From Pseudothermotoga elfii DSM 9442 = NBRC 107921 (GTDB lineage: Bacteria > Thermotogota > Thermotogae > Thermotogales > DSM-5069), in the NCBI RefSeq assembly GCF_000504085.1, contig NC_022792.1, positions 1,268,001 to 1,332,000 of the forward strand: a stretch of DNA of 64,000 bases, read 5' to 3'. Below, piece after piece: positions 47,861-50,986 of the stretch. Numbering within the stretch: position 1 is the stretch's first letter; each line of letters opens with the position of its first letter. Under the pieces are notes generated by a model, which had not been told where the DNA came from, did not search any database, and saw only the letters and a list, made by a program, of their open reading frames with translations. The position numbers and the translations under genes are program-made.

Positions 47861-48588
47861 AAGCCATTGAAACCTTCGATCTCACAAAAGTTTATGATGG
47901 AAAAATTGCCGTGGATTCACTAAATCTATCGATAGATCAGGGTGAACTTTTTGCTTTACTCGGCATCAATGGAGCTGGTAAGACAACTACCATTAAAATG
48001 CTTTCTTGCCTTATCACTCCAACAAAAGGAGATGCACGAATCCTTGGAGATAGTGTTGTTTCAAATTCTCAATCTGTGAAAAAAAAGATAAGTCTTTCTC
48101 CTCAGGAAGATGCTGTTGCACCAAATCTCACTGTTAAAGAAAACCTTGAATTGATTGCGCGTATTTACGGTTTCGAAAAAAAGGAAGCAAGAATTAAAAC
48201 AGAAAAAATGATAGATCTTTTCAATCTTGAAGAAGTAGCAACTTCAAAAAGCAAAACATTATCTGGTGGGATGAAGAGGCGTTTGAGCATTGCAATGGCT
48301 TTAATACCAGATCCACAGGTGCTATTTCTTGATGAACCGACCCTCGGTGTTGATGTTATAGCAAGGCGTGAATTGTGGAATATCATTAAAAAACTCAAAA
48401 GAAGAATTACGATGATTCTAACAACACATTATATGGAAGAAGCAGAATCATTAGCCGATAAGATAGGAATAATAGTCAAAGGAAAGCTGAAAGCAGAGGG
48501 AACAGCTGCACAATTAATGCAACTTGCTGGTGCACAAAAATTTGAAGATGGTTTCGTAAAACTCGCAACTGAGGAGGGGGCAGCATGA
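47857..48588 (+). CDS. ABC-2 type transporter ATPase
   Basis: A 243-residue ATPase: LGINGAGKTTTIKML, signature LSGGMKRRLSIA and VLFLDEPTLGVD. The NatA/drug-exporter subfamily fits, as does the partner permease that starts at 48585. Since that permease is broken, this ATPase may have lost its function. Confidence 0.88.
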   Translation: MKAIETFDLTKVYDGKIAVDSLNLSIDQGELFALLGINGAGKTTTIKMLSCLITPTKGDARILGDSVVSNSQSVKKKISLSPQEDAVAPNLTVKENLELIARIYGFEKKEARIKTEKMIDLFNLEEVATSKSKTLSGGMKRRLSIAMALIPDPQVLFLDEPTLGVDVIARRELWNIIKKLKRRITMILTTHYMEEAESLADKIGIIVKGKLKAEGTAAQLMQLAGAQKFEDGFVKLATEEGAA

Positions 48589-49339
48589 AATTTCTGGTGC
48601 TTTCATCACGAAACTCAAAAGAAATTTTGAGAGATCCCATTAATTTATTCTTTGGAGTTGGTTTTCCCATTATCCTGCTGCTTCTTCTTTCGGCAATTCA
48701 GTTGAATGTCCCAACAAATTTGTTTCACATAAATAACCTGTCACCAGGTATAGTAATTTTTGGTCTTTCCTTTTTTTCATTGTTTTCAGGAACATTGATA
48801 GCCAAAGACAGAGCCAGTTCTTTCATGATGCGTCTGTTTGCATCGCCACTCACATCAACTGACTTTATCGTCGGATATACATTTCCTTTTGTTCCTATAG
48901 CATTTATTCAGGTTTTAATAACCTTTAGGTTTTAATAACCTTTACCTCATCCGTATTTTTTGGATTTCGATTTAACCTCAATACTTTATTTGCACTATTT
49001 ACTGTCATCCCTACAATATTTCTTTATATAGATATAGGAATTGGATTGCTCGCAGGTAGTATCTTCAACGACAAACAGGTTGGGGCTGTCTGTGGCGCTT
49101 TATTGACAAACATCAGTGCATGGTTGAGTGGCGTGTGGTTCGATATAAAATTACTCGGGAAAACATTTGAGAACATCGCAAACTTTTTGCCGTTTGTCCA
49201 TGCTGTTGAAGCTTCCAGAGCAGCTGTTCATGGTAATTATTCTTCAGCGTTTTCCAATTTGTGGTGGGTAACAGTTTATACTCTTGTCATATTTATAGTA
49301 GCTATCCTTGTGTTTAAGGAAAAGATGAAGAATATCTGA
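48585..49339 (+). pseudogene. ABC-2 transporter permease disrupted by a 17-bp duplication
   Basis: The gene begins in frame behind GAGGGGG and encodes membrane segments until 48935, where a frameshift causes a stop. A perfect 17-bp tandem duplication at 48911-48944 is responsible: with one copy removed the frame runs uninterrupted (...LITFTSSVFFGFRFNLN..., then GLLAGSIFNDKQVGAV) to 49339 and gives a 245-residue ABC-2 permease with six membrane segments. Replication slippage is the likely origin, so it could revert. Confidence 0.85.
48911..48944 (+). repeat. perfect 17-bp tandem duplication inside the permease gene
   Basis: GGTTTTAATAACCTTTA occurs twice head to tail (48911-48927 and 48928-48944). 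As 17 is not a multiple of three it shifts the frame. The unit itself contains GGTTTTAATAACC, an imperfect palindrome, which favours slippage. Confidence 0.95.
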
Positions 49340-49538: not shown

Positions 49539-49578
49539 TTTTCCCGAAAGCTCGGGCTTTACGGGAAAATATTTTTTA
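49539..49578 (+). terminator. riboswitch-controlled intrinsic terminator
   Basis: TTTTCCCG+AAAGC pairs with GCTTT+CGGGAAAA around a TCGG loop (one bulged A), 13 bp in all, followed by TATTTTTT. It starts four bases after P1 of the riboswitch, the position of a ligand-controlled expression platform. No other terminator lies before cobT. Confidence 0.85.
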
Positions 49579-49584
49579 CCATGA

Positions 49585-49850
49585 CACTTCAAAGATGGGG
49601 TGAAGAAGTCAACTACCCACCGCTTGTAGAAGCGGGGGCTTGAAAAGCTTAGTTGACTACCCTCAGCCACATAAGTGGCTACGTTAGACAGGTACACCCT
49701 GTGATGCTGCTCAAGTTCCAGGCTCTGTCGTGCAGGTCTAAACAGTCCTGAGGGGTAGGGACAGTGATCTGCACATAACAAGCCTGTCTAACATCGGGGA
49801 TGAGCAATTAGCAGGGATAATCCCTGAGTTATCGTCAAAAGACGATTGGA
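49585..49850 (+). ncRNA. highly structured orphan RNA element, HEARO/omega-RNA-like
   Basis: A gene-free stretch packed with perfect inverted repeats: CTTCA/TGAAG (49588 on), GTCAACTA/TAGTTGAC (49608-49657) enclosing CCGCTT/AAGCGG, AGCCAC/GTGGCT (49665-49680), GTTAGACAGG/CCTGTCTAAC (49683-49792) enclosing GTGCAG/CTGCAC (49730-49774), CAGGGA/TCCCTG (49812-49826) and ATCGTC/GACGAT (49831-49846). The element begins right after an ATGA, the target described for HEARO (IscB omega-RNA) insertions. The outer hairpins also look like IS200/IS605-type ends. No IscB or TnpB gene follows; cobT does. The structure is certain by pairing, the family name is a hypothesis. Confidence 0.5.
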
Positions 49851-49879
49851 AGTGATTGTGTGGTTTATGTAATTTCATT

Positions 49880-49938
49880 GGAAAGGAGGGAACAGCGCAT
49901 TCCTTTCCATCTTGAAGAAGATGGAGTCTCCTGCGCTG
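49880..49938 (+). promoter_or_regulatory. competing hairpins in front of cobT
   Basis: CAGCGCA (49893-49899) pairs with TGCGCTG (49932-49938) and encloses CCATCTT/AAGATGG (49907-49924). Alternatively GGAAAGGA (49880-49887) pairs with TCCTTTCC (49901-49908), which excludes the inner hairpin. The structure ends 4 nt before the cobT ATG, and cobT has no good ribosome site of its own, so these folds could set translation. The GGAAAGGAGGG run looks like a ribosome site for a now missing ORF. Confidence 0.5.
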
Positions 49939-49942
49939 GTTT

Positions 49943-50986
49943 ATGATGAATATCGAAGAAGAATTTTTAAAACAGCAAATACTTGAGCGATTAAACAATT
50001 TAACAAAACCAATCAAAAGCCTTGGTTATCTTGAAGACATCGTTTTGAAAATTGGACTCATTCAAGGAAAAATTATCCCTGATTTACCGAAAGATAAACG
50101 AGTCTATATCTTTGCTGCTGATCACGGTGTTGCAGCAAATGGAGTTTCGGCTTACCCAAAACAGGTAACTTACCAAATGGTCCTTAATTTTCTCAATGGA
50201 GGGGCGGCAATTAATGTTTTTTCAAGACATGTTGGAGCCAAAGTTTATGTTGTTGACGCAGGAATTGACGGAGATTTTGACGTTAAAAATGATTACTTTA
50301 TAAACGCAAAGATTGGCTACGGAACAAATGATTTTACAAAAGGACCGGCAATGAGCAGAGAACAGGCGGAAAAATGCATCGAATATGGCAGAAAAATAGC
50401 AAAGGAAGCTATTGAAAGTGGGGCTGACCTTTTGGTTGTGGGGGATATGGGAATAGGAAACACGACAACCGCCTCAGCCATTGCGGTATCGTTTGGTTTT
50501 GACATAGACGAAATATTAGATATTGGAACTTTCATTGATAAAGATGGGTTAAAAAGAAAAAGAAAAGCTATACAGAAAGCCATAGAAATAAATAATCCTG
50601 ATAAAAATGATCCCGTAGATGTACTTGCAAAAGTTGGGGGGTTCTGTTTTGGGCAGATGGCTGGATTCATTCTCAAATCAGCTGAGGAAAAAATTCCTGT
50701 TTTGATCGACGGTTTTCCCACAACTGCTGGTTTATTGCTTGCATGGAATATGGATCATAATGTGCTCAGGTATGTGTTTGCGGGCCATAGATCGATGGTA
50801 AAAGGTCATAAAGTGATACTTGACGCGCTCAATCTCAGGCCAATTCTCGATCTTAATATGCGACTTGGAGAAGGCACAGGTGCCGTCCTGTCGATTCCAA
50901 TAATTGAAGCTGCAATAAAGATGATCGGGGAAATGTCTACTTTTGAAAGTGCCGGGGTTTCAAAAGGAGTAGATCAGGTAAAATGA
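49943..50986 (+). CDS. cobT: nicotinate-nucleotide:dimethylbenzimidazole phosphoribosyltransferase
   Basis: A 347-residue CobT that activates the lower-ligand base (DMB or another) to its alpha-ribotide. Motifs: FAADHGVAANGVSAYP, NGGAAINV, VGDMGIGNTTTASA and the catalytic Glu310 in RLGEGTGA. First of eight overlapping cobamide-salvage genes behind the B12 riboswitch. Start ATG 49943 (or 49946) lacks a clear ribosome site; see the hairpins before it. Confidence 0.93.
   Translation: MMNIEEEFLKQQILERLNNLTKPIKSLGYLEDIVLKIGLIQGKIIPDLPKDKRVYIFAADHGVAANGVSAYPKQVTYQMVLNFLNGGAAINVFSRHVGAKVYVVDAGIDGDFDVKNDYFINAKIGYGTNDFTKGPAMSREQAEKCIEYGRKIAKEAIESGADLLVVGDMGIGNTTTASAIAVSFGFDIDEILDIGTFIDKDGLKRKRKAIQKAIEINNPDKNDPVDVLAKVGGFCFGQMAGFILKSAEEKIPVLIDGFPTTAGLLLAWNMDHNVLRYVFAGHRSMVKGHKVILDALNLRPILDLNMRLGEGTGAVLSIPIIEAAIKMIGEMSTFESAGVSKGVDQVK

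Follow-up and report, generated by a model that had tools for sequence, protein, structure and literature searches.

What is the strongly structured segment that separates the cobalamin riboswitch from cobT in Pseudothermotoga elfii DSM 9442, and how might cobT be translated behind it? The segment lies in the window, by which we mean the whole stretch of 64,000 nucleotides analysed here (contig NC_022792.1). A preliminary description had singled out positions 49585-49850 as a region rich in hairpins that the riboswitch does not explain, and both parts of this statement are correct. The segment has a folding energy of -104.4 kcal/mol (z = -5.86, with none of 200 shuffles equally stable), and the match to the riboswitch aptamer (RF00174, 49376-49543, + strand, 102.7 bits) stops upstream of it, at 49543.

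Identity and boundaries of the element before cobT

Scanning the window against Rfam with gathering scores as the threshold yields two matches, the cobalamin riboswitch and HEARO (RF02033), the model that had been proposed for searching. The HEARO match occupies 49608-49812 on the + strand, scores 154.6 bits against a cut-off of 83 (E 1.2e-32) and covers the model at full length (1-211 of 211). In an alignment of 17 of the 77 HEARO copies fetched in this study, window copy included, 29 of the 53 consensus pairs show two-sided changes, and the hairpins, whose lack of conservation or covariation would have spoken against such an RNA, are thus supported by covariation in relatives. The identification of the segment as an IscB omega-RNA is near certain. 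HEAROs have been reported adjoining ATGA or GTGA, and the segment had been thought to start directly after such a motif. The feature begins at 49608, not at 49585, and continues to 49945 instead of ending at 49850; the ATGA at 49581-49584 is incidental and the relevant one, at 49946-49949, is the start of cobT at the other end.

Comparison with the six other HEARO copies and with the right ends present in the same genome delimits an element of 338 bp (49608-49945, + strand), which begins with GTCAAC (49608), ends with GGTTTATG (49945) and is followed by the flank ATGAA. Both ends are common to iscB-bearing copies of the same genome. These sequence comparisons mark 49608-49812 as the omega-RNA carried by a non-autonomous ISC/IscB transposon, and the shared right ends bear out the earlier suggestion of a non-autonomous mobile element. 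No linked iscB ORF follows the HEARO of the window, only an in-frame remnant of 28 codons. Solo or stand-alone omega-RNAs are a known exception to iscB linkage, and the proposal that a solo omega-RNA was left behind after loss of the nuclease agrees with the RF02033 match and with the further copies, with and without iscB, that had been called for: six were found, three of them followed by a damaged iscB.

The flanks tell what the insertion seems to have separated. The 17 nt to the left (49591-49607, + strand) form the presumptive guide of the omega-RNA and hold GGGGTGA (49597-49603), the former Shine-Dalgarno sequence (SD) of cobT, with an anti-SD duplex of -10.7 kcal/mol; a guide-target duplex of 17 bp is given for OgeuIscB in the relevant passage of PMC9640706. 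On the right, ATGAA (49946-49950, + strand) is a target- or TAM-like motif and, according to sequence and copy comparison, the presumptive original cobT start; the last ATG of the element (49943-49945) lies directly 5' of it. The left flank ends with GGGGTGAAGAA and the right flank begins with ATGAATATC, and when joined they give SD plus start at the cobT locus. The present cobT frame (PF02277, 49943-50986, + strand, 423.7 bits) is the first gene of a B12 salvage operon and is followed by cobU (PF02283). Upstream of the riboswitch, at 48585-49339, a membrane-protein gene 3' of an ABC ATPase gene is seen as two separate ORFs (48585-48935 and 49046-49339); read across both, the frame of the former contains 11 stops, so that the gene may be frameshifted.

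In a search of four genomes of the genus, cobT was found in three, including that of P. elfii itself, and the metagenome-assembled genome GBS-1 possesses two cobT loci. HEARO is absent from all four related riboswitch-cobT leaders in three genomes (L024, L025, L017, and L018), which show the order riboswitch, terminator-like hairpin, SD, and start, and no HEARO occurs in three other genomes of the genus. Since both the related leaders and the other genomes lack it, the insertion looks recent.

The genome (2.17 Mb; 2,169,860 bases in one contig) contains seven HEARO copies above cut-off and seven matches to the right-end sequence. Two solo copies have the same build as the window element, one of 340 bp before cinA (L129 = L002) and one of 335 bp before a gntR-type gene (L131 = L004). 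A Pfam search for RRXRR detects iscB in three copies, L003, L005, and L006, in each case damaged as judged by eye: L130 (= L003) and L132 (= L005) have frames of 265 and 284 codons from which the HNH region is gone, and L133 (= L006) keeps the HNH region with its start lost and a premature stop. Another HEARO copy, L134 (= L007), is devoid of the right part, and L014 has a right end and no HEARO match. An intact IscB with RuvC, HNH, and C-terminal TAM domain was not found in this genome, and for that reason guided cleavage with the RNA of the window copy seems unlikely. One intact Y1 TnpA was found in the genome, in another element of the IS605 type (L008, genome G000), where it is accompanied by TnpB. 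The left-end hairpin of L008 (CTCCATCTT...AAGATGGAG) resembles, by eye only, the inner stem of the window right end and provides a lead for the mobiliser. An ORF adjoining this TnpA on the opposite strand (L008 839-1291, - strand) carries an HNH-like HIIPRSKGGTDN and a RuvC-III-like EKSHINDAIAIT and, also read by eye, is possibly a remnant of another IscB-like gene.

Placement of HEARO elements in Thermotogota, plasmids, and phages

HEARO occurs in 24 of the 103 genomes of the phylum search, above cut-off in 21 of them. The 77 copies fetched comprise 72 of the 74 above cut-off and five weaker ones, G004:C87 and G046:C34 being left out at contig ends. Right ends were set by eye for 39 copies from right-end motifs, similarity between copies and the following ATG; the other 38 have no clear end, run into the end of a contig or are copies from G047 or G046, where the end reads differently. 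This choice was not blind, downstream ORFs having been seen already, and because ATG served as a cue, the finding that the elements are followed by ATGA is partly circular. L076 and L100 were dropped as apparent orthologous duplicates, leaving 37 elements, among which L067 and L068 with their similar left flanks were both kept.

An open frame of at least 60 codons starts from the flank ATG in 30 of the 37 elements, compared with 29.5% of a background of 1320 ATGA sites in the flanking DNA, and an SD of -7 kcal/mol or better lies within the 20 nt to the left in 23 of the 37, compared with 9.6% of these sites. Both features occur jointly in 23/37 elements versus 5.5% of the background sites (nominal binomial p 3e-20, uncorrected for relatedness). 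The frequency of such an SD is 5-14% in windows 10 to 60 nt further left and 8.4% among 765 control windows of the left flanks, 40-250 nt away. The joint test is failed by 14/37 elements, and seven of the 37 are followed by fewer than 60 open codons; in L132 and L133, just 9 and 13 codons are open after the ATG. Ten of the downstream genes were assigned by Pfam, namely cinA, regulators of the lacI and gntR types, a glycosyltransferase, a ParA/ferredoxin-type NTPase, an FAD amine oxidoreductase-type gene, a glutamyl-tRNA synthetase-type gene (L099), mutL, a radical-SAM/TRAM gene, and an HTH-cupin regulator.

Two other observations come from the same survey. In G047, for which 16 of 17 HEARO matches were fetched, 9/16 copies end in ...GGAAAATGATAAA, 7/16 carry an ORF of 211 codons that may be part of iscB, and none of the 16 has a left SD; the insertion habit of this group is a different one. 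The elements L067 (G021) and L068 (G020) share a near-identical left flank; the former is a solo element of 337 bp and the latter an iscB-bearing element of 1501 bp, and the genes after them are different.

Target motifs of characterised relatives are compatible with this placement in part. The TAMs published for IsrB include NTGA, for which TTGA and ATGA were cleaved, as well as NTG, and the term "start codon" does not occur in that text (PMC9581776). The TAM NNRR given for OgeuIscB in PMC9640706 is compatible with ATGA, whereas NTAAA, stated for OrufIscB in a section of PMC13180657, is not equal to it.

Elements outside the Thermotogota were sampled in 13 loci (12 plasmids and one phage) from the top rows of the IscB matches, which comprise 72 plasmid and 17 phage records; a plasmid search by DNA gave no match. 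All 13 have a HEARO match with E <= 0.01, above cut-off in 11, and right ends could be set by eye in eight, with ATGA as a cue. At least 60 codons are open from the ATG in seven of these eight, and a left SD of -7 kcal/mol or better is present in 4/13 loci, or in 2/8 of those with an assigned right end. The location on the side of the start codon, together with the SD brought along by the element that is described below, seems to generalise better across phyla than the left SD does.

Right ends, element-borne SDs, and iscB remnants

Within the window element, the iscB remnant MVYVISLERREQRIPFHLEEDGVSCAGL (49860-49946, + strand, GTG start) is preceded by the SD-like GGAAGTGA (49848-49855, + strand) and is what an internal deletion has left of iscB: six codons from the beginning of the gene, continued in the same frame by the final 22. 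Its stop TGA takes the last base from the host flank, whose first base it is, and overlaps the cobT start. The idea of a deleted ORF, which had been derived from the ribosome-site-like GGAAAGGAGGG (49880-49890), therefore holds in so far as this remnant exists; the interpretation of GGAAAGGAGGG as the ribosome-binding site of an independent ORF has been replaced, since the motif lies within the C-terminal LERRE codons of iscB, which are also present in longer iscB copies of the genome. The overlapping AAAGGAGG (49882-49889, + strand) stands on the 5' side of the right-end hairpin (49893-49938, + strand), which has the outer stem CAGCGCA/TGCGCTG in the centroid structure and an architecture like that of other subfamilies, although the surrounding stretch 49840-49975 is no more stable than its shuffles (z -0.37). 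The internal loop of the hairpin is pyrimidine-rich, with TTCCT (49900-49904) opposite GTCTC (49926-49930), and several subfamilies are alike in this; it could pair with the element-borne GGAGG and is a possible switch or transposase motif.

A strong SD in this part of the element is widespread. Among 45 elements, i.e., the 37 from Thermotogota and the eight plasmid or phage copies, 41 have an SD of -8 kcal/mol or better 45-95 nt before the ATG (the sites themselves lying at about 55-92 nt), compared with 13.9% of 310 windows inside elements, and counted by genome or record the proportion is 22/23. Only 3/45 have an SD of -7 kcal/mol or better within 20 nt of the ATG. In L119, there is no distant SD and an ordinary one of -15.2 kcal/mol lies beside the ATG. 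When the stretch from the GAAAGG motif to the ATG is folded in the 31 of 37 elements that have this motif (the six from which it is missing were left out), the median spacing between SD and ATG is reduced from 56 to 8 nt, a value that reflects sequence and predicted fold only. The outer stems differ in sequence among subfamilies and enclose most of this stretch. In 11/31 folds, pairing reaches the SD and leaves a spacing of 1-4 nt, too tight for a normal SD.

Codon usage at the same place can be compared among 24 long iscB genes. The residues ERR are found near the C terminus in 14 of them, from ten genomes, the two arginines being encoded by AGG-AGG in 11 and by AGG-AGA in three, at an AGG share of 19% among the other Arg codons of these genes; ERQ or ERM stands in its place in two of the remaining genes, and eight gave no match to the motif. 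In four plasmid copies (Natranaerobius, Cetobacterium, Shewanella, and Pseudoalteromonas; frames assigned by eye), GGAGG is kept and codes for other residues. Right-end hairpin and GGAGG may instead be conserved for recognition by the transposase and not by ribosomes.

The reading frame of the remnants was followed as well. In our own tally, 13 distinct internal deletions were recognised; in nine, a frame that begins at an upstream start stays open as far as the right-end stop (the G000 solo type, the L130 and L132 types, the G036 solo type, L099, L111, L067, L121, and L128, the last with an internal frame change) and in four it does not (L120, L073, L127, and L113); the expectation is one third, and the p of about 0.01 was calculated by hand, post hoc and without correction for relatedness. 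Three of the four G036 solos fetched (L082, L086, and L109) are without their customary ATG and would have to be translated from a more upstream start. The right end of the fourth, L084, is one base different in length from its sisters, so that the frame of the iscB remnant enters the host gene, making L084 a candidate translational fusion. The elements L152 and L159 are truncated at the 5' side and have lost the omega-RNA; by eye, they retain the short ORF and the right end before frames of 468 and 399 codons, respectively. From the 30 right-end matches in G036, 20 were fetched as loci and examined, many of them truncated at contig ends and some with the right end unplaced. The assumption that solo copies always keep the omega-RNA because it is needed is unsupported, L151, L152, and L159 having lost it among these 20 loci.

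Translational coupling requires overlap or a very short distance between stop and start, following the account in PMC10666635. The window element and its subfamily have such an overlap, in contrast to other subfamilies; in several of them, the iscB stop is located 20-40 nt before the ATG, and under the rule as worded there, a stop at a distance of about 20 nt or more would not permit coupling. Coupling as the sole general means of rescue was rejected for this reason.

Proposed function, competing explanations, and known systems

We propose that the window carries an element that inserts at start codons and whose right end, sometimes together with an iscB remnant that is still in frame, allows the split gene to be translated again, and we assign this reading a probability of roughly 0.6, its translational part being deduced from sequence and predicted folds. 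Mobilisation of the element would have taken place in trans, with a Y1 TnpA as the probable enzyme. Insertion of ISC elements before ATGA, a motif that frequently serves as a start codon, would sever a gene from its SD, and such insertions might persist because the right end can restore initiation by two routes. In one, the right-end hairpin would bring the element-borne GGAGG near the host AUG; in the other, envisaged for this and some other subfamilies, ribosomes would end the iscB frame at a stop overlapping or near the host AUG. Two overlapping routes, a hairpin-shortened SD distance and stop-start coupling, are the version we favour. The cobT operon would in this manner be kept expressed under the B12 riboswitch, with an omega-RNA carried along in the leader of its mRNA. 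A broader generalisation, to which we give slightly less than even odds, is that ISC/IscB elements are start-codon specialists across phyla, with ATGA as the start, the host ribosome-binding site as the guide and a movable bypass for translation made up of the right end (GGAGG, hairpin, a few nt, ATG) and an iscB frame that ends on or near the host start; SD and AUG could thereby be parted, important genes included, and the gene would not be silenced. Minimal copies, the cobT one among them, would then keep omega-RNA and bypass with the nuclease lost. What appears new is that the element sits between an SD and its start codon, with a right end that bridges the two. Among the matches listed in our literature search, we recognised none that deals with start codons as sites of IscB elements; three founding papers beyond the scope of that search (Weinberg 2009, Kapitonov 2016, Altae-Tran 2021) may mention start codons, and the claim to novelty is provisional. 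If correct, the proposal would explain why ISC elements are oriented toward the next gene, why their flank is of the ATGA type and why their guides resemble ribosome-binding sites.

A simpler view takes the element as plain transposon debris, in which hairpins and GGAGG serve transposition only, the site reflects an ATGA target plus selection against insertion within genes, and cobT is poorly translated or provided with chance signals. ISC elements do use an ATGA-like target and hairpins are to be expected at ends of the IS200/IS605 type; copies that stand before no gene, such as L132 and L133, the elements with fewer than 60 open codons and the folds with only 1-4 nt between SD and AUG all fit this view. 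It accounts poorly for the SD-start placement of 23/37 elements, which includes genes costly to lose, e.g., that of the glutamyl-tRNA synthetase type (of which the same genome may hold a second copy), for the retention of GGAGG under different coding and for the short ORF that persists after loss of the omega-RNA, and we consider it unlikely, though with a real share of the probability. That a regulatory RNA of the cobT operon, linked to the riboswitch, evolved in place is hardly credible. Its position in the leader, 3' of the aptamer and of a terminator-like hairpin, is what such an RNA would show, but the six other HEARO copies have other neighbours, and the four empty leaders in three genomes led us to reject it and, with it, the earlier thought of a new operon-control RNA.

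The remaining possibility is an exapted guide RNA, i.e., a solo omega-RNA that, transcribed from the B12-controlled leader, guides a relative of IscB to other ribosome-binding sites for a regulation like that by TldR, proteins derived from TnpB. The guide is indeed SD-like, and five further sites of the genome match 14 of its bases plus ATGA with at most three mismatches, compared with none for the reversed pattern; three of the four examined begin open frames of 306, 301, and 184 codons (one reads ATGT, not ATGA). Resemblance to an SD nevertheless follows from the insertion site alone, the insertion is missing from related leaders, and the three IscB matches of the genome are damaged by eye, two being without the HNH region and one with its start lost and an early end. 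Cleavage is reported to be lost when mismatches fall within the 14 TAM-proximal positions (PMC9640706). As no intact IscB was found that could use the guide, its matches in the genome are most simply a by-product of the site, and this explanation is very improbable. We return to the start-codon-inserting element as the preferred reading and compare it with systems already described.

With HEARO, the IscB omega-RNA (RF02033), the window copy shares the full-length model match, the secondary structure and a guide on the 5' side, and it differs by the absence of an iscB ORF other than the 28-codon in-frame remnant. Right end, ATGA right flank and order of the omega-RNA are those of ISC transposons (IS200/IS605 superfamily) as seen in iscB-bearing copies of the same genome; unlike these, the element is non-autonomous, with no transposase inside. 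The IsrB TAMs NTGA and NTG in the text of PMC9581776 fit the right flank; IsrB is without HNH, whereas L006, the sole copy here with a long iscB frame plus an HNH region, has one. TldR RNA-guided regulators likewise employ the guide RNA of a transposon-derived system (PMC13418256, in the portion on these regulators), although no intact effector protein was found in the genome studied here. Similar to translational coupling of the ATGA type, for which PMC10666635 describes in the part concerned an overlap of the stop TGA with the next start ATG, the remnant overlaps cobT, but the upstream frame is a transposon remnant and not an operon partner. A functional parallel is with IStrons, in which IS605 or IS607 is combined with a group I intron: they are mobile elements with a device that makes insertion harmless to the host gene, according to the relevant text of PMC4227781. 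In contrast to IStrons, neither intron nor splicing is involved here, and the proposed rescue would take place at translation initiation. If this holds, ISC elements would be a second kind of transposon, beside IStrons, that repairs expression of its target gene, though in a mechanistically different way.
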